Of a stretch of 64,000 nt of DNA, positions 3,788 through 56,770 are shown piece by piece. The stretch lies in NCBI GenBank assembly GCA_037043015.1, contig CM073323.1, positions 11,343,758 to 11,407,757 on the forward strand, read 5' to 3'. Position 1 is the stretch's first letter. Every line of letters starts with the position of its first letter. The notes under the pieces were generated by a model, which worked only from the letters and a program-made list of their open reading frames with translations, was not told where the DNA came from and ran no database searches. Position numbers and translations under genes: made by a program. This DNA comes from Bryum argenteum (Eukaryota; Streptophyta; Bryopsida; Bryales; Bryaceae).

Positions 3788-6700
3788 TCAGTTCCTTGTA
3801 CCGCGTCCTTTCAGCACGTAATTTCGCAAGCCAGGGATATGAACATTGTAGAGGTAGTCCGCCCAATCAAGTTGTCGGACATTGAAGGAAAACGTGTCAA
3901 GTTCTTCCGCAGAAAGCTCCTTAGATAGAGATTCAGTGTTCTCTATTCCAAACCTGAACATAATTCACCGGCTACATGTTAGGCTTGGATCAGCTGGCTG
4001 GGTAAGACCAGTTTACTTTCTGCAGAGCATGGAATCAGTATGAGAAGTATACAAGAAGCAGACTGCATAATGAAATGTGAAATCATTTGAAAGTGCTGCG
4101 AACATGTGAACTACTCTGCTGATGAAATGATTACGCGGTGTACACATAAATTCTCTGCTTCAGGTACTGTGACTCAACTGTCGCACCTCCGGCAAATTAA
4201 AACCCACGATGATGGGTTTCTGTCCCACTCCTTGATGACATTATATCATCAACTTCAATCTCACACAAGGATGCACAAGGAAAGTGAGGAAGAACTCGGG
4301 AAAGAGAGTACGCACCTGCCAGCGTAGAACGTGTACGGCTTGTAAATGTAAGCCAGGTATTTAAATTGTTCAAGTGTTTTTTGGATAATTAGTTCCCGCC
4401 TTGCAGAGGCCTTCCCCTTCTTCATCCAAGGAAAAAATTTCGATATCTGCAAGACATCACATTCTCCTGGATCTATCAACTGCGACAACGATTTGATTCC
4501 GACGGATGAGGCAATAATTATAAGAATAATGTGAAATTGTTGGCCATTTCACATTTCCAATCTCAAGATCATGTTCCTCTCTTGCTAAAAGAGAACGAGT
4601 AATAGAGAAACTTGAGTCGCACTGGATAGTGGACATACCAGTAGTGGTAATTGATACACAAACCACATATAGACGTTGAAAGCGACCATGCTCTGCACAA
4701 AACGCATTCGCTTCACTTTAATCGGTTTTCCAGCTCGGTCAAGCATCGGATCCTTCGTGAAAAGCTCCAACGCTACGTCAGCCAGTATATTGAACGTCAT
4801 AGGATTCACGACCGACGACGCCACTTGATAAACTTGTAGTCCGGGGCTCTTAGCGTGTTTTGTCATGGCAGACAATAGAGCATTCACAACCAAGTCGGCT
4901 GGGATCTGTTCATGCATACCATCGTTACTTTGCTGAAGCTGATACTTCATACCATGTGATCATAACCCAAAGCATACAGAGAACTTTGTGCGCGCAACAC
5001 AGCTTCAATTACTGCATTAATAAGGAGCTGATTAAAGCAAAGAAACGACCATAGAATTTGACAATAGCATTTGAATCATAGATTGAGGTACTAACCACGT
5101 CGAGTACCCCTTCAGGATTTGCCAGAAACCCAGTCATCTGTCCTTTCCCGTAAGCCAGCACAATAGGGTCCATCATTCTGCACGGAGAGATGGCAATGAA
5201 GCTTAGAGGTTGAAGAGGACTGACAGATTGCCACAATATTTTTCTGAGCAGAAATGAGCTGTTTAAACCCCACGTTTTCCTATGCAACTACGAAACAATC
5301 GAGAAGTAGATTTTTTATGCATATATCAAGAAATAATTCAGGTTAAATAGACTGACCGAATACCCTCCATCCAACCAGGGAAGGGCTCCGTAAGGGTACT
5401 CTCCACAACACTCGGACGTAAAACTACCACTGGTATGTCGCTATGTAAAGATTCAACCAACATTTCTCCCATGGCCTTCGAGAAAACATAAGTATCTTGC
5501 CACCCAAAAAGCTTAGCCCTGAGAGAGTCAAATCAACGAAGAACGTCAATACGATGTGGTTGCTCAAAGAAAATTTTCTTAACTTCTTCTAGGATTTGCT
5601 GGAGGTCATCCATCATCCAACAGAATCGGCGTAAAATTTCAGCTTCCGCCAATGCAAACTTCTTAATCACAAACCTAGACATGCCCAACTCCTTCATTTT
5701 CTTGTCAACAGCTTGTTGTCGCTCTTCAGCTGAGAGACTGCTTTGACTCATATCAGCAACAATTTCCTCCAAGGTTTTTTCACATAGCGCAAGCTCGGTT
5801 GCAACATTTAGATCAGGAACTCTTTCGTCAGACATCTCCCTCGCGATACTATCGCCCATCTTGAAAGGTTTCTCAGGAGTGTGACCCTGTCTCTGGCCGT
5901 TGACAAATGCTGCAAAGTGCCGTCCAAAAAGTCAGAGGATTTCTATCAAGAATAAGGTGTTGAACGATTCTACACAAGGTGTCTGATGCGTGAGATACTT
6001 ACATGAACAAACATCTTATACAGATAATTAATTGAAAAGAGACGATACCGAAAATTGTACTAAATTGATGCAATGATTCTCTTATACCAACTTCTCGCGA
6101 GAAGTTGACTCACCGGTGGAGACATGTAGGAAGAGTTGAAGGTTAGGGCAGCCTTGAGCGAAATCAAGTATTCTGCGTGGACCCTGAGTGTTGATGTTCA
6201 TTGCGACATCGTACCTGCAGGTGTCAGCAGAAATAAAATTCAAGATCTAATATTTTTTGTAAATGAACAACTTTGTGCTTCTCCAGCTTCGAATCAAAAG
6301 ACTGCAGCAACCCTCGCAGAAACAATTGTTTCGGAAGTCAAGGACACGGTTCATGAATATCGATGCGTAAGTGGGTACGATGCGTGTATTAAAAATGGCA
6401 TCCCACTTCTCGGGAAAAACCCTTGTGAGTGCGCGCCTCAAAAATAAACCATGACATTCTTCAGAACAGAAATCTAACCCGTTTACCTCTCATCGAAGGT
6501 AGTTGTTGCAGCAGAATTCACGATAACATCTACACTTCTTGAGAGGTCCTTTGCTACATCATTTGATATCCCAAGACCGTCAGTGGAAATGGTGCCACTG
6601 ACTGCGGTAAGCTTCCTGTTCATAAATGTCTCATAGTTATCCCCATGAGTAGCCTTCAGCACCTTGAAGAGCGGAGACTTGATAACCTACAATTCGACCC

Positions 6701-45517: not shown

Positions 45518-48265
45518 ATGAAGTTCCTCGAATACACGCCGCTCGCTCGGTAACAATCAAACCCTTTGCATTTCCATTCCTCTATTTCTTGCGTTTTTTG
45601 GCCTCACCTTTCGTGCCATGCAGAATAAACGCGTTTCTAAGCCATCTGGATGTCGGAGGATGTACGATCCAAGGTCTCATGGAGGCGTATTCCTGTAAGT
45701 CATTTTACTTTTCCTCTTGATTTCTTATTTAGTGTTTTTTGTCTGCATTTTGGCATCAGGACAGTGAAATTTAGTTTCTTAGCTAGTTTGTTTCATGAAA
45801 GGAGGTTTATTCTACAGGTAAACTCGCAGGAGCTGACAAAAAGCTGTCGCGGAGTCTGGAGCAAGAGGTGACAATTTGAAGCCTTTATTTGGATCTTGAT
45901 GTGATGTTATTTTTTGGAATTCGTTGTGTGAGATTTTATGTATTACTGACTGTTTTATTTTCTTTTGACAGGTCGTGGATTCACTAGCTTATTCCCCGTT
46001 GGACCTGTCCACCTCTCCCGTTGGACCGCTCTCTAATACTGCAAGGTATGTCCCGGGTTGTGAAAGAACTCGAATTCTCCAAGTAATTCTTGTGTGTCTT
46101 CAGAGACGTCCTTCTTGGCTTGACGTTCAGAAATTGGTTGATGAGGGGTTGTCGTTGTGTGCTTACAGATGAACCTCTAGATAGCTTGCATCGGAAATTG
46201 ATCTTTGAGGAAGTACTGTATTTTTGAGTTATTGTTCTGCATTGAGGATAATTATCAGGAGCATGGCTGCTACACCTCAACTTGCACCATGTTATTGATT
46301 AAATTCCTTAAAGTCCTAATCTGCATATTTAATCGAGACCTCGTTGCAATAAGGAATCGATGATAACCATGTAGATTGAAACTTGAATAGCATTTGTCGT
46401 GTCTACATCGCAAGCAAAAAATTGATAGTTAAGTCCTGGTAGTAGCCTGATGACTCCTCAGTTTCTGTCTTCGAGATTGTGAGCTTGGGTATGAGTGTTG
46501 ATAGCAGAGGAATTTTTTCACGTGGCTTAGTTATTATCGGTCTCGTTCTGATTCTTTGTGAGAATGGTGAGTGTTCACCCTTCTGTTCACTTGTTTTCAG
46601 TCGCAGGACATTAATTCACCTGATTCTGACCTTGAATCATATGTATCCTGACTACGATTTCAGGTAATGGCATCACTCAAAGTATTTGTTTTTTATGGTC
46701 TTTCCATTGTGCACTCCTCAGCAATCATCGAAGGAGGCACATACTATTCAGGTTATTGTCTTTTATGTGTATTAGTAATGTTTAGGTTGTCATGGGTACT
46801 GTGAGTGCCTACATGGCCGGCAACCCATTCTTTTGAAAGGAACTAGGAAGTGTTGTCAATGGTTGACAAGCGGTTTGAAGCCGTTGCTCCTGAGGAGCTG
46901 AGAGTTCAAGTCTCTCCATTTCCTATTATTTCCTACGTAGTCTGTCCTTCTGGTGTTTTACCGGTTTTTTCATTGTCGGGTAAGCGTTGAAAGTGAAGAA
47001 AACTAACGATTCAATACTCTCATGTCTATACTGACCAGTATGTTGCGACCTCACCACTTCGCTAAAGAACACGGTGTTCTTGCTGCAAAGCAAAAGATTG
47101 AAGTTGCTTTGGTTGAAGCATCAAAGGTAGAAATTAACCGTTGCTGGTATAGCTAATGCTTTGTGTGATTTTGCTACCTCCCAATTTTTTCTGAATTACA
47201 TGATACTTACAACATGCGACTCTGGAGTCGTTCATATTGTGAGTGGTTTGTACTTGATGCTGGACTTCCAAACTCTTCGAGCGTGGGGCCTGTTTAACAC
47301 ATTCTGAATAACAGATATGGGCTATAGAAGCTGGTGAAAAAACAACATTAGTTGACAGTATATGGAACGCCATTGACGAGGTTAGTAACAAACCGCTTGA
47401 GAATGACGGAAGGGCTTTGTTATAGAGCACGCATGCAATCTCTGTTTGTGACTGAATTCTAGATTCATAAAAAAAAAAAAACAGCGACGATTGCCTTCGA
47501 TTAATAACATGCTCACCATCCAGCAGGTAATCAACTTAGACGAATGTGAAGTATATGTCTATGCGCCTGATGCTGAAGGGGATCCTTTCGCTGACACTGG
47601 CAGCATGTGAGTTCCAACCGCTTTGAATTCTATACAGTATTTTGAGTTTCCAGTATCTTGGGTTTCTGTTTTTGCCGTCTATATCCTGCTACCATGAATA
47701 GTTCAAAATGTAGTTCCACCCGTTTGAAAAGTTACGAGATAAGTTGCCCTTACGCTTTGAAGCTTATGATGCACGTACTGATAGCTGGCTAACGCCTATA
47801 CTTTGAAGCAAAACGGAACCATAAAAATGGTTGTGATGCGGTCATACCAAGGCTACTACACCAGATCCCATCAGAACTCTGAAGTTAAGCGCCTTGGGCC
47901 GGCATAGTACTGGGAGGGTGACCTCCCGGGAAGTCCCGGTGCTGCATCCAGTCTTTGCTTAACGTTGTATGCTTTCTGTGCGCTTAGATGGTCCTTTAAC
48001 TTCTTCTTCTACAACAAGAAACTCAAGCGTGTACTATACTTCAGTTCCCGATGCACGGGGTAAATTCTCATACTTCTACACTACTTCGTCTGCTTCAAAT
48101 AAACTGCGAGATGAATCAATTTACTAATCAAGTTGTAGCTGAACTAATCTATTGAACACTTCTTGCTTTTCTTTCAGAAAGCAGTTCCTGGACAACTCAT
48201 CCAGCGACGATGGCTCTGGGGACTGGGACAACGACTTCGTGGACGGTATGGACCTCGAAGGCTGA
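45518..48265 (+). CDS. MAF1: MAF1, repressor of RNA polymerase III
   Basis: MAF1 binds RNA polymerase III and represses tRNA and 5S rRNA synthesis; its activity is controlled by TOR-dependent phosphorylation. Exons: 45518-45549, 45624-45694, 45818-45867, 45972-46045, 46601-46663, 47039-47126, 47315-47380, 47527-47606, 47988-48059, 48178-48265. They give 227 aa, close to plant homologues, with all phases kept. Conserved blocks are MKFLEYTPLA, the INAFLSHLDVG...LMEAYSCK block, SRRTLIHLILTLNHMYPDYD, then F, VYVYAPDAEGDPF, and WSFNFFFYNKKLKRVLYFS (from W176). The C-terminus is acidic (SSSDDGSGDWDNDFVDGMD). Introns 5 and 8 hold tRNA-like and 5S rRNA-like sequences, listed separately. The start ATG matches the family N-terminus exactly. 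Confidence 0.94.
46846..46923 (+). tRNA. tRNA-Ser(UGA)-like sequence in MAF1 intron 5
   Basis: Hand folding gives a full class-II cloverleaf. Acceptor stem GGAAGTG/CATTTCC has 7 pairs including one G-T. The D arm is GTC-AATGGTT-GAC. The anticodon arm is AGCGG-TTTGAAG-CCGTT, with anticodon TGA, T33 and A37. The long variable arm GCTCC/GGAGC is typical of Ser. The T arm is GAGAG-TTCAAGT-CTCTC, and its GTTCAAGTC fits the B-box; TGTCAATGG is a weak A-box. The D loop is short and the total of 78 nt is compact. T runs at about 46955 and 46965 could terminate Pol III. It could be a functional tRNA, a tRNA-derived remnant or an organelle-derived copy. Confidence 0.6.
47834..47950 (+). rRNA. 5S rRNA-like sequence in MAF1 intron 8
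   Basis: The sequence runs from GATGCGGTCATACCAAGG to GGTGCTGCATCC and aligns with plant 5S rRNA over its full length. Helix I (GATGC/GCATC) and helix II (AAGGC/GCCTT) are intact. Helix III reads CAGA/TCTG where many plants have CGGA/TCCG, a compensated change. The internal A-box AGTTAAGCG and C-box TGACCTCCCGGGAAGTCC are present. The intermediate element reads GGGAGGGTGACC, one base shorter than the usual GGGATGGGTGACC. Only three T residues follow within 10 nt, a weak terminator. It is sense to MAF1 and ends 38 nt before the 3' splice site. It may be a dispersed 5S gene, a regulatory mimic or a 5S-derived repeat. Confidence 0.85.
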
Positions 48266-51200
48266 GAAACATGTGATATCTAGCGTAGTCTGTGTACATA
48301 TTATGTACATACCACCTGGTAGCTTTTGGTGATTGTGGAAGCATTGTAGCATATTCAGCTTAGAATGTGCTTCCCATGTACATTTACACCTTCATTACTT
48401 GGACTCATCAGTGAAAGCTGCTGGGGAATCATCTTACTTGGGCTGCTTGCTCTCTTTGTAATTGTATGTAGCCTTCCACAATCACCAACTTTAGGTTAGA
48501 TTGCAAAACTCATCTCGTCGACGTTGAATCTGATAGCTACATGTAGTGAAAGTAGCTTGCAATGTTAGGCTGAAGTTGAGCCGAAACCGAATGTTCTTGG
48601 GTCCTATTTGCAAGTGAAACATTCCATTGCATGTGACCAGTTCTGAAAGTCCTCGTTTTGTATCATGCAGCATGTCTGTATGAGTTGTTTCCAGATCTAT
48701 TCCTTTCGTTTGGATGGTCTCGAAATGGTTCTGAAAGTAGAACTTTCTTATCACTTCCCTCGCTAATTCAAAAACTACTTCGTAAAGGTCATTTTATTGC
48801 ACAATGAGGATTGATGCAACTTTTTGAGACCAGAGATACATGATCAACACAACGGGTGTGCTTCTATGTATACTGACCAATATATTGTGGTGGCACCCAA
48901 AACAACTTAACAGACTGATCCACGTAATATCTCAGTGTAAGCATCAATGTAAGCATCGAAGAACCTCGTTGATTTTCTGTAATCGTACACACTTTTTCTG
49001 AGAAATCGCTTAAGGCCTTAATTAGAGTTTGTGCCCTTCATCAAACTCGGGGGTGGTAGGAGCAGCCCCTGCGGTTGCCCAGACCAGTCGGTCGCAATTT
49101 CAGTTGGACCGTGCTCTTTCCCCCTCAGGATTGAGACGTTTGCGATCAGGTGAAGCAGTGGGTTTCTGCTGAACCAATATCCTGACTTGTGCTGGACAAT
49201 GTGAACGTAGGAGATGGCTCAGTGGGAAAACGGCAACCATCATCTCCTCTCCGCTGGATTTCAGTACTAGGTGGTTCAAGCGGAAGCGTGAAATTCTCCA
49301 GCAAGAACCGCATCGAAGCTTCTGTACATCTATTTCGCTGCCACCTAAGTTCGACGGCGGGGACTAGCTAGCTGTAAACTGGTATGAATCCGATCATCAC
49401 CTACTGGAGTATTGATGTGCAGTCTAATTTTCAGCGTTTGCCCTTTTGACGGAGAATACACTAACTACTCCTTGCCCCTGTCCACCTTGACCAAAGAAGA
49501 AGCTGTTCTTCGATATTAGTGCATGAGGTTGCCGACCCGGGCTGCACCGCGTGCAGGTATCGTTGTCCGGAAGTTTGAGTTTCGAGTGGACGCTCACGCA
49601 CTACAATTAGACTGAGGAGAAAGATCAAGTTACCGACCTTCTACTGTAAGTTGCCGTCTCCAGCATCTACCTCACTTACTCGTCTATTGTGATGCACATG
49701 GTTGGGTTGATCTAAGTTCTTCAGAGGTATGGCTCGGAAATAATAATCTGATACCGCTCACAAACATCAACATTGAAAGAATCCTCACTAGTATCAATGA
49801 TCCAAACCGTCCGGTTGTATCAATAATTCGAAGGGGCACATGATCCTTCAACTGATGTCCAAAGTTCAAAATCATAAGGTAGACAATGCTAAATCCGTGC
49901 ATCTCCTTGAACTGCCCACTCATGTTTCTTTGAACTGCCCACTCATGTTTCTTGCCTACTTTCTAGATTTTATGGAAAAGGATGTACCTCATGTGCACAT
50001 GGAGCATGTGAACGGTTTTAGGTAATGTGGTATTTGTCACTTCTAAATTTAAATTTAATATTTTTACAATTGCTTAAAATATGGAAACTTCTTTATTTCA
50101 TCATATATATAATTGAAAAATATTGATTCACATATTCCAAGCTTACAACTATAGTGTAGTCTGTAAATGCATGAATTTAGCATTGTCTACCTTGATGTTT
50201 CTCTATCTAAATCTTGTTTAGGAATAGCTATTTTTTGCAGTCGACTTTTTGGACGAAAATAAGTAGTTATTTTTTGCATACGACTTCTTGGATGCAATCA
50301 GAGTGGCACTCCGGAGTCTCTCCATAATCGTTGAATTGGCAAAATTCATGAAATCCTGGATTGGAAATTGCATTTCGAAATGCAGTTAGAAACAAGATGA
50401 TCATAACACTGCAAAACGAATGAATACGTTCCTTAAAATGATTACACTCTGTAATGAGAGACTTTAGGGGACACGCTCAGTAGATAATAGCTTGAAGATC
50501 CACCATCTTAAATCTCTTCAACTCCTTGGACCTAATAAATGATATCGGAGAAATTCTCTAAACAATCTTTCAACACATAATTGTTTGTCTTTCTTTTAGC
50601 GACACCATGTATTTGGATGATGCATATATTTCAAACACAAAACTGATATCTTGAAATGAACGGCACTAGAAAAGACAACGAAGAGCATTACAAATACTTT
50701 GAGAAACTACAATCTAGAGGTTTTGAGACTCAAAGTGTATAATACAAGACATTGAAAAAGTGGAGAGGATACATAGGAGGTAAATGTAACACCATCATCT
50801 ACATAGTCGCTAGGAATTTGCTAATTACTGCATTCCTTAGAGATGATCGATAATTGTTTAGAACGAGCTCGCAAAGGTCCACAGGTATATTTCCAAATTT
50901 AGTGCAATTACCTAATTGAATGGTGGTATTAGTTAGAATCAAACAAAAATAAAAGTCTTACATTTCTTGAAAAGACAATAAAATATATGAATATAAATAT
51001 GTTTGTATACATAGGTACACATAATAAATAGAAATCTTAGAAATGAAGTTATTTTGAAAATTAAAGATCTGTTCAATCTCATCCCTCAATCATGTAGTTC
51101 TCAGCACAAATCAGTGCCTGAAAATGTTGGTATTACTCTAACCTCAATTTTGGTAATATGGCGGTATTCCTTGTGCCATTTTGGCGAAGCCTTGATGTGC

Positions 51201-53665: not shown

Positions 53666-56269
53666 TCATGAGTTGCTACGGTGAATTACAAAGCACTCAC
53701 CCATACAAACAGAAACATTGCAAGTAGGGCAATACCATTGCCGGACTTTCTTGCAAACCACACAACGACGTCGGATACGGTTTTCATGACCACTCCAAAC
53801 CATAGTATAGTGTAATTTGTTAGAATTTGGAACCGCCGCCCCGGGCATGCATGTGGGTTTGTCTACGGGCACCTCGGTCAAAACGTTAGCTATTTCAACA
53901 TAGAATTGCAAATGAGACATAGGTGTAGTACCCCTCAATACCATGGCTTTTTTGTATAAAATATAGGCATTCAAAAAAGATTGATCTAAAATATGATAAA
54001 AGATCTTATGCCACCATTTGTGATCTCTTCTTTGCAATGAGTAATAACCCCGCAATTGGTCATGCACATCAACACCTCTCATGTGTTGTTGGTAATGCAA
54101 CAAAACCGGGGACGCCGGAATTTGAATATAACCCCCGGCATGCCATCGGGTTATAAACAAAGACCGTGAGGTATCAACCGGACTACACGCCGTAGAAAGC
54201 AAAAAGACGGGTTTATTATCGTACCAAGTCACGGCGCACATTCGTTTGCTTGCGTGCACCCGGTACCAAAGTTGTCCCCGGGATCCCGTGGGTGAGTTAG
54301 TGAGCGCTTGAGGCCACCCAATTCGGTTTGTCCTACAAGTGCCTGTCGCAAAAATACCATGTTCCAACAAAGACCAAAATAATGCCGGTGAGGTAAAAAA
54401 ATTGTCACATGTAACAATGTGCCCCTTACCTTCCAAACCGAACATGAGGTTTAGCACAACTCTCCCCCCGACGTTCCCCTCCTCTTGGGAATCGCTTGCC
54501 CCGCAATGAATATCGATTCTTTGCACGTACTTTGATTCACAATTAGCCAAACACCAAATTTTCAAACCATATTGTGTGGGTTTGGCTTTCATGTATTGTT
54601 TTATAGGTGCATACTTACCCGTGTATTTTATCATCATTTCGTCAACGCATACATTTTGTTCCGGGTTATAATACAAAGAACATAAATCATTATGTTTGTT
54701 CACTAACCACTCGGTTTTTGCTAATTTATTGTAATTAGGACTAGATTTATCCGTGGTAACATTCCTATTATCAACTAAGTGCAAACATCTCAATATGTCT
54801 TCAAACCTATTTTTTGACATGCATTTTCTAATTGCATTGGTTAGAAATAACTCATCAAAACATTTTGACCAATGTAATCGAACATTAGGTAACTTTTTAG
54901 TAGCCATGAACATAAGTATACCAAAAAAGGTTAGTAGCTCCTTTACCGTCAACGGGACCCAACGGGCTCCTCCACGTGTCTTGCCTTCCTCATTGCTTGA
55001 TGCGGCATACAAATTAGACATTCTAACAATTCTCACCAACACGTCATTAGGCCAAAACAACAAAAAGAAGTCAAGGGGATTTCGGCATAATGTCAAAGGC
55101 TCAACCAAACCTTGTTTGCCCCCTAACCAATGAACGGGGGGAATTTGAGTGCAAGGTGAATTCCACATACCGGGTGCAAAGTGTTCATTTACCGGTAAAC
55201 TAGAAAATTCGGTAAATGTCAAATTGCATCCTAAACCTATTTCATTTGATGCATTAGAGTTGTTTATAAACCACTTCTTCAAATTTGGGGTCAATTCCAT
55301 CTTTTCTAATTTATCCATGTCATTTGAAACTTGGGATTCTGATTGCCCGGGGTAATATGTATAATCCGAAGAGTCGTTTGTGGATGGACTTGGAGTTCTA
55401 AGTCTTGAACCCCAAAGTTGGACTTCACTTACCATACCATACTCACCATTTTCATCCACAAATTTTACTACGGCCTCTGGGACACTATATCTCCCCCATG
55501 GTCCAAACAATAAGACTTCTAGCATATCAATGGCAATCAATGGGTCATAGAATTCATTCACAACCGTTCCCCAAAACATGTCTAAATACCGTGCTTCACT
55601 ATCTAAAGGGATGTTCAAGTCAAGTAATTCACATTTTGGGACAATTACACACCTACCAAGGCATCCAAGATTGTACAATGGCATGTGCAAAGATTTTTGA
55701 AGTTCACTTCTTAAGGTAACATTTCGATTATGCAAACTAGAAGCCCAAACAAGCTCAAATTCACTTGTAGCTTGGCTATCTAATTGACAAATGTCATTGT
55801 CCCTAAGTGCCTCCAGAAGCTCCTCCACATGTGCTCCGTCTTCACCCTGCACAAACCAACAACCACGGGCATGAGGATTCTCAAGAAGAGAATCCATTGC
55901 CATAAAATCAAAAGGAAGTGGTGAGTGTGGGGGCAACGAGTTACCAGCTGATGGCGGGATGCGTCGTTTTTGGCTTGCGTGATACGACGCCTCTGTTGGC
56001 TCCGGAGCTTGAGGTTCTCGAGAACTGTTACCAGCGCCAGGCACTGGTGAACTAGGCAGCCCCTCCACGGACTGTTCCAATGTCAGCTGGCCATCGTGAC
56101 CCAGCTCGAGCTGTTGGCGCACCAATCGGGCAGTCCCTGGCCGTAACTCACCCGGACGAAGGATTATGCTCTGGTTGAGGTTGCTCATGGGCTGTTCCAG
56201 AGCCTGCACAGACAACAAACCACCTCGGTCAAATCTCATCAACACTCTGGTGGTAAGAATGAGGTTCAT
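53666..56269 (-). CDS. PiggyBac transposase (DDE_Tnp_1_7)
   Basis: The enzyme excises and inserts DNA at TTAA sites without leaving a footprint. The 867-codon frame has the catalytic triad at D543 (VCVDEMMIKYTGK), D622 (IVTCDNFFTS) and D734 (MRGVDVHDQLRGYYS). The domain starts at about residue 385 (NPLDFFLLFWPNDVLVRIV) and is followed by a C-terminal Cys-rich zinc-binding region (RRRCVVCKKVRQWYCPTCN, then VSVC, about 836-862). There is no stop or frameshift. The annotated ATG at 56269 may not be the true start. A splice acceptor, TGTGCAG, at 56204-56210 precedes ALEQPMSNLNQ, and a perfect donor at 56771 ends an upstream open frame in the same phase. The ~360 residues before the domain are of unknown function. 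Confidence 0.9.
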   Translation of the reverse strand: MNLILTTRVLMRFDRGGLLSVQALEQPMSNLNQSIILRPGELRPGTARLVRQQLELGHDGQLTLEQSVEGLPSSPVPGAGNSSREPQAPEPTEASYHASQKRRIPPSAGNSLPPHSPLPFDFMAMDSLLENPHARGCWFVQGEDGAHVEELLEALRDNDICQLDSQATSEFELVWASSLHNRNVTLRSELQKSLHMPLYNLGCLGRCVIVPKCELLDLNIPLDSEARYLDMFWGTVVNEFYDPLIAIDMLEVLLFGPWGRYSVPEAVVKFVDENGEYGMVSEVQLWGSRLRTPSPSTNDSSDYTYYPGQSESQVSNDMDKLEKMELTPNLKKWFINNSNASNEIGLGCNLTFTEFSSLPVNEHFAPGMWNSPCTQIPPVHWLGGKQGLVEPLTLCRNPLDFFLLFWPNDVLVRIVRMSNLYAASSNEEGKTRGGARWVPLTVKELLTFFGILMFMATKKLPNVRLHWSKCFDELFLTNAIRKCMSKNRFEDILRCLHLVDNRNVTTDKSSPNYNKLAKTEWLVNKHNDLCSLYYNPEQNVCVDEMMIKYTGKYAPIKQYMKAKPTQYGLKIWCLANCESKYVQRIDIHCGASDSQEEGNVGGRVVLNLMFGLEGKGHIVTCDNFFTSPALFWSLLEHGIFATGTCRTNRIGWPQALTNSPTGSRGQLWYRVHASKRMCAVTWYDNKPVFLLSTACSPVDTSRSLFITRWHAGGYIQIPASPVLLHYQQHMRGVDVHDQLRGYYSLQRRDHKWWHKIFYHILDQSFLNAYILYKKAMVLRGTTPMSHLQFYVEIANVLTEVPVDKPTCMPGAAVPNSNKLHYTMVWSGHENRIRRRCVVCKKVRQWYCPTCNVSVCMGECFVIHRSNS

Positions 56270-56770
56270 GCTTGAATATACGGACTCAAGCAGTTACGGG
56301 TGGCCATCAGTACCAATTCCCCGAATTCCACAGCCTGGCCTAGAAAGAAAAAACAGAAGCAAAGCTTTGTAGCTCCCTATCATCGTTGCACGACTTCCCG
56401 ACTCTGAAACCAAAAGCGAGCGATTGATACATTGATTGGTAAAGAAGGAGCTGCTCACACATCTCTTGCCACCGGATGTGAGCAGCCTGTGGAATATAAA
56501 CAGCTTGTGACTAGCGTCCACGAGGAAAGCACGGTGAGATACGTCATAGTCCAAGTCCATGCAGACCAGTGCATCGGACAAAATGAAAAAGAGTCCAAAT
56601 ATTGACAAGAAAATGCTTTCCATCGTGCTTTATTCTTTGTCGATTCATCCGAAAGGATACTCGAGGAGTCTGCTTCCGTGGAAGAGTTGGAAACAGAACG
56701 AGTGCGAGTGGCACAAATTGCGAGTGGTACCACTTTCAGCAGGCTACTAGACTTTGAACAAGGGACTTAC

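Follow-up and report, generated by a model that had tools for sequence, protein, structure and literature searches.

Several described systems place 5S rRNA-like or Pol III-type sequences within genes or repeats, and together they form the frame in which a new case can be read. The closest is the plant 5S rRNA mimic P5SM, which lies in an intron of the TFIIIA gene, where it is bounded by splice sites, alternatively spliced, and conserved across land plants. Its splicing is controlled by the ribosomal protein L5, which helps the removal of the mimic intron (PMC6164485, excerpt). In mammals, intron 1 of Polr3e contains a MIR element that is transcribed by Pol III. The excerpt of that study reports that a Pol III element placed in the intron in sense orientation has no measurable effect on a reporter, whereas the antisense element is effective (PMC5358760). 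Among repeats, 5S sequence forms the head of SINEs of the SINE3 type and is also carried by the Cassandra TRIM retrotransposons of plants (PMC10886601, excerpt). Moreover, a tool paper on plant SINEs includes 5S among the head types that it allows for (PMC8825457), so that plant cases may be known. The titles and abstract openings of the literature searched contain no case of a plant 5S-derived SINE, and no description of 5S inside a MAF1 intron.

Here we describe a 5S rRNA-like sequence in an intron of MAF1, the gene of the main Pol III repressor, in Bryum argenteum, and compare it with these systems. The reading that we favor, with a probability of roughly 0.6 as judged from sequence comparison, is that a young, tail-less 5S retrocopy came to lie in sense orientation in MAF1 intron 8 by chance, and that it has little or no effect on the gene.

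MAF1 contains a full-length 5S sequence in intron 8

The window analyzed is a stretch of 64,000 nucleotides from an assembly of 258.8 Mb in 25 contigs. The MAF1 coding region extends over 45518-48265 on the forward strand, with the stop codon at 48263-48265, and is divided into ten exons whose introns are all of the GT-AG type. This exon model gives the MAF1 protein exactly, and Pfam PF09174 (Maf1) matches the conceptual protein from residue 1 to 174 of 174 over the whole profile (190.7 bits). MAF1 is a single-copy gene, as all nine matches in the genome correspond to this same gene; hence no paralogue is at hand for dating the insert. Two introns are of interest, namely intron 5 (46664-47038, forward strand, 375 nt) and intron 8 (47607-47987, forward strand, 381 nt), both placed by the exon model. 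The AG of the 3' splice site of intron 8 ends at 47987, and exon 9 starts from 47988. Elsewhere in the window, an open frame of 875 aa on the reverse strand (53669-56293) matches the full DDE_Tnp_1_7 profile of Pfam with 258 bits, and presumably encodes a piggyBac-type transposase.

Intron 8 harbors a full-length 5S rRNA-like sequence of 117 nt at 47834-47950 on the forward strand. Positions 1-120 of the 120 positions of the Rfam 5S model are matched here, with a score of 95.8 bits (gathering score, 38) and an E value of 1.6e-19 over the whole window, far beyond chance. The full-length forward-strand match and the exon model agree with an earlier sequence-only reading, which had placed a 5S sequence end to end and in sense orientation in this intron. 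That reading had also noted that the 5S sequence stops shortly before CTTAAC and the 3' splice site, and both are found where expected: the motif, read directly in the sequence, occupies 47958-47963 on the forward strand, 8-13 nt past the 5S end, and we take it to be branch-point-like. At position -1 of the copy (47833, forward strand) stands a G, which is found at the same place in 43 of 46 5S copies of the genome. The commonest 5S copy of the genome is hereafter termed the head; relative to it, the MAF1 copy lacks a single T at two places and carries one substitution. Conceptual retention of intron 8 leads to a stop codon directly past the exon boundary, and hindered splicing would therefore lower MAF1.

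Dispersed 5S copies in the genome

Searching the genome with the 5S model gives at least 46 matches that exceed the family cut-off, distributed over 11 contigs. One of these is the MAF1 copy, which ranks 21st by bits within the 46 listed. The count is a lower bound, as 47 of 8049 first-look candidates were scored. BLAST with the MAF1 copy gives at least 44 matches, including itself and some split pieces, and the others reach up to 97% identity. The uniqueness implied by the earlier reading is therefore not borne out, since near-identical copies are dispersed through the same genome. Outside the 46, one of seven examined regions, locus L062, passes the 5S gathering score, with 38.6 bits. In addition, a pattern search with an embryophyte 5S 27-mer lists 31 places with one or two mismatches each, and the exact 27-mer occurs at none of them. 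One place with two mismatches, C3:8133440, was considered as a TFIIIA mimic and rejected, since it sits in a copia-like reading frame. The 5S helix III fragment at this place (L061, ~4435-4466, forward strand) lies, as judged by eye, between integrase-like and reverse-transcriptase-like parts.

Relative to embryophyte 5S, the MAF1 copy differs in several helices with compensation, as seen by eye. We considered that these compensatory changes had evolved in the MAF1 copy itself and rejected the idea, because the dispersed copies share them; the changes therefore belong to the 5S of the species, not to MAF1. Six 5S copies are identical to one another and are followed by differing downstream sequences, a pattern suggesting that the head probably represents the endogenous 5S of the cell. 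Neither a tandem 5S array nor a 5S copy beside 5.8S loci is present among the matches listed. We also discarded the possibility that the genome's 5S lies within the 45S unit, as none of the 46 5S matches is near the six listed 5.8S matches; both searches scored part of their candidates, and their counts are to be read as "at least". The true 5S genes may be scattered through the genome or missing from the assembly.

The flanks of all 46 copies were read. TTT directly follows the 5S sequence in 37 of them, and in 39 the downstream sequence within 900 nt is common to at least one other copy. The main downstream types are a body of ~370 nt and a body of ~105 nt with a TATCTATCT end. Of the 46 copies, 21 have a target-site duplication no shorter than 12 nt within a distance of 700 nt, compared with one of 184 mispaired controls, in which the upstream sequence of one copy was paired with the downstream sequence of another. 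This excess indicates that many copies are 5S-headed retroposons. The SINE-like system as a whole (L009-L053) combines the 5S head with TTTTAAA and varied bodies. Three loci, L015, L042, and L050, hold the 5S sequence inside a longer repeat with a downstream part common to all three; an upstream repeat is shared by L042 and L015 as well as by L042 and L050, unlike the SINE-like copies. At L012, a candidate junction of 5S with a LINE end is suggested by a duplication and by motifs seen by eye; Pfam gives no match at this locus. Reverse transcription of 5S RNA would account for the dozens of dispersed copies, many of which head SINE-like elements.

Retroposition marks at the MAF1 copy

Like the 5S-headed SINEs of the SINE3 type (PMC10886601, excerpt), the MAF1 copy has a full-length 5S head with a G at -1, and this head is near-identical to the dispersed heads of the genome; it differs from these elements in the lack of a T-run, body, tail, and target-site duplication. 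No T-run follows the 5S sequence, as the copy stops at the 5S 3' end. The tail common to other copies is absent from the 900 nt downstream, and no target-site duplication is present within 3000 nt. Flanking direct repeats such as LTRs are likewise absent from 45518-49500, which sets the MAF1 copy apart from Cassandra, whose 5S sequence sits in the LTRs (PMC10886601, excerpt).

Most of these absences have counterparts elsewhere in the genome. Six of the 46, namely L012, L017, L021, L037, L038, and L053, also have no shared tail, and L015, L017, and L021 are little-changed copies (one or two substitutions) with no detected duplication. The missing T-run is the only lacking mark that is rare among young copies, and L009 likewise has none. 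Two of the three changes in the MAF1 copy are deletions, whereas the 46 copies together show 282 substitutions and 33 insertion/deletion events; like the missing marks, this counts against the retrocopy reading. The tail-less copy L038 (560-916, reverse strand) is ~1.2 kb away from an open stretch that gives a Pfam Mo-co_dimer match of 61.4 bits, so that other tail-less copies may also be located in or near genes.

The missing marks could also be explained by a 5S-headed SINE that inserted in full and from which a later deletion removed the tail and the 3' duplication. Such elements are common in the genome, and the 5' end of the MAF1 copy, with its G at -1, is the one found in 43 of the 46 copies. 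However, the deletion must then have stopped at the 5S 3' end, and no likeness to the downstream sequence of any other copy is found within 900 nt. We consider this course of events quite improbable. The MAF1 copy probably arose by the same machinery as the others, in this case as a tail-less product that landed in sense orientation in intron 8, and probably has no function. The number of 5S copies expected in a gene of MAF1 length is 0.0005, or ~0.05 over 100 such genes, where 100 is a guess at the number of Pol III-related genes; with such a value, chance is not absurd.

The tRNA-like element in intron 5

On the forward strand of MAF1 intron 5, positions 46845-46925 form a tRNA-Ser(UGA)-like element with a fully paired cloverleaf and a long variable arm. 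It scores 36.2 bits with the Rfam tRNA model in a 4-kb search (gathering score 29), and every pair of the model is a standard one. The gathering search over the whole window, with its faster filters, does not report the element, nor is it among the 64 matches listed in the genome search with the tRNA family. ARAGORN gives no hit in 5.12 Mb of shuffled window sequence and none in the 55 loci, of 71, that were scanned. No other BLAST match of the element is present in the genome, and its similarity to three longer tRNAs (81-87 nt) taken from the 64 listed is loose, the best being 56 of 92 columns with a tRNA on contig C12. This small contig (114,600 bases) carries several tRNAs and is plastid-like in our judgement. 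The presence of such a neighbor suggests that pure chance is a less comfortable explanation for the 5S copy, with the reservation that the pairing was noticed after the fact.

Pol III promoter features

Head positions 49-97, which comprise box A, IE, and box C, are intact in 10 of the 46 copies. The MAF1 copy has both deletions and its substitution in this segment. The first TTTT 3' of the copy is found at 48167, past exon 9. Thus, the two features of a functional 5S gene, a terminator T-run and an intact internal promoter region, are both missing. Taken with the lack of tail and duplication, these features make it unlikely that the MAF1 copy is an active Pol III gene; it would instead be removed with the spliced intron.

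A related proposal is that TFIIIA, TFIIIC, or Pol III might assemble on the intronic 5S sequence, together with the tRNA-like element, and thereby hinder Pol II on MAF1, by analogy with the Pol III-transcribed MIR in Polr3e. The tRNA-like element would lend itself to this role through its GTTCAAGTC sequence, a B-box-like motif, and through TTTT at 46956. The location within a gene for a Pol III regulator also resembles Polr3e, since in both cases the host gene belongs to the Pol III machinery and carries a Pol III-type element in an intron. However, Pol III occupies the Polr3e MIR, which is conserved and in antisense orientation, whereas the MAF1 5S sequence is sense and damaged in its promoter region; for the sense arrangement, no effect could be measured with the Polr3e reporter, as described in the excerpt (PMC5358760). 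The damage in head positions 49-97, the absence of TTTT up to 48167, and this reporter result together disfavor occupancy by Pol III or TFIIIA, which had been one form of the sensor suggested by the sequence-only reading, and make it very unlikely.

Comparison with the 5S mimics of TFIIIA-like loci

Two TFIIIA-like zinc-finger loci are located on contig C4, ~9 kb apart and in opposite orientation. We assume their TFIIIA identity from a match to a frog query and from C2H2 matches in one exon. The 5S model detects a mimic in each locus, at L072 1789-1900 (reverse strand) and L073 1271-1381 (forward strand), with 41.7 and 31.9 bits, the second being below the gathering score. Both mimics precede the exon containing KSYVCPVENC, where the published plant mimic presumably also lies. 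In both, helix III agrees with the dispersed head apart from a T/C change and one or two letters of the loop. These mimics, presumed to be functional, are far more diverged from 5S than the MAF1 copy, and they fold at -37.0 and -34.2 kcal/mol, less stably than 5S, so that extra stability is no mark of function. The AAG-GT of the TFIIIA mimics reads AAGCG in the MAF1 copy. In addition, CCTTGGGCCGGC is common to the MAF1 copy and both mimics, where the head has CCTTTGGGCCGGA; this sharing may be a coincidence.

The MAF1 copy resembles P5SM in that a 5S-like fold, predicted here for the pre-mRNA, is intronic and the host gene acts in the 5S/Pol III pathway (PMC6164485, excerpt). The likeness extends to the retained helix III/loop C segment and to the premature stop that retention of the intron would give. 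The differences concern location and sequence: P5SM belongs to TFIIIA and has diverged, whereas the MAF1 copy lies outside TFIIIA, is near-identical to cellular 5S, and has no AAG-GT.

On this basis, the MAF1 copy might be an exapted 5S mimic, with L5 (or TFIIIA) binding the intronic 5S fold beside the putative branch site. When 5S is scarce, free L5 would bind MAF1 pre-mRNA and hinder the removal of intron 8, leading to less MAF1 and more Pol III output, an outcome for 5S that would resemble that of the TFIIIA mimic. The two mimic-bearing TFIIIA-like loci, the published control of the TFIIIA mimic by L5 (PMC6164485, excerpt), and the immediate stop codon upon retention of intron 8 are in line with this model. 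However, L5 would then have to impede splicing, contrary to its published action (PMC6164485, excerpt); if L5 instead helped the removal of intron 8, a shortage of 5S would increase the repressor, whereas a homeostatic loop requires the reverse. Moreover, the full-length 97% identity suggests youth rather than long constraint, the TFIIIA mimics fold less stably than 5S, and AAGCG stands where they have AAG-GT. We regard exaptation as unlikely.

Predicted folding of the MAF1 copy

The MAF1 copy alone is predicted to adopt a 5S-like fold at -49.2 kcal/mol, and the same fold is predicted within intron 8 and the start of exon 9. Its helix III/loop C segment is intact, with the exact helix III that is found in 18 of the 46 copies. 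Both features speak for an exapted mimic, as does the folding energy, which is the lowest among the 46 copies (head, -41.6; next copy, -44.7 kcal/mol). This low energy arises because the two deletions remove two bulges: each drops one bulged U and adds 3.8 kcal/mol of stability, the largest gain for any single deletion of the head, and both belong to the four most stabilizing single deletions. Random combinations of one substitution and two deletions in the head reach the MAF1 stability in 3 of 5000 cases, and in 68 of 5000 when both deletions are of a T.

The composition-matched test, which was chosen after the data had been seen, covers the 40 copies not identical to the head, with 4000 draws for the MAF1 copy and 600 for each other copy. 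The MAF1 value of 0.0015 is the lowest of these 40 and becomes ~0.06 after correction for 40 tests. L019 (0.0033) and L040 (0.0067) have low values as well, which together with the corrected value and the lower stability of the TFIIIA mimics renders the stability signal suggestive only, and this weighs against exaptation. Furthermore, the whole 434-nt stretch of intron 8 and the exon 9 start is no more stable than its shuffles (z -0.22).

Three points make exaptation conceivable: the 5S fold is not only intact but tightened, another intron of the same gene holds a tRNA-like fold, and a TFIIIA version is apparently present in the genome. A wider model would regard the MAF1 pre-mRNA as carrying two mimics, tRNA-Ser-like in intron 5 and hyper-stable 5S in intron 8, that tune splicing via their binding proteins and add a further RNA-sensing loop to that of the TFIIIA mimic; we hold this to be rather unlikely. 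The idea of a 5S sensor in MAF1, raised from the sequence alone, thus survives in part. The predicted 5S fold and the helix III segment are kept, but the genome contains many dispersed 5S repeats, which the sequence-only reading had itself named as one of two signs of a chance insertion, and the favored reading remains that of a retrocopy with little or no effect on MAF1.

Implications for Pol III regulation

If the sensor model were true, the plant would have coupled its main Pol III repressor directly to how much of a Pol III product is present. It would also show how such feedback loops start, in this case from a fresh insertion and not from an ancient exon. If the insert is inert, the locus calls for caution against inferring function from a single striking insertion, and the genome of this plant, with its repeated retroposition of 5S RNA, would represent a ready supply of intronic 5S mimics.
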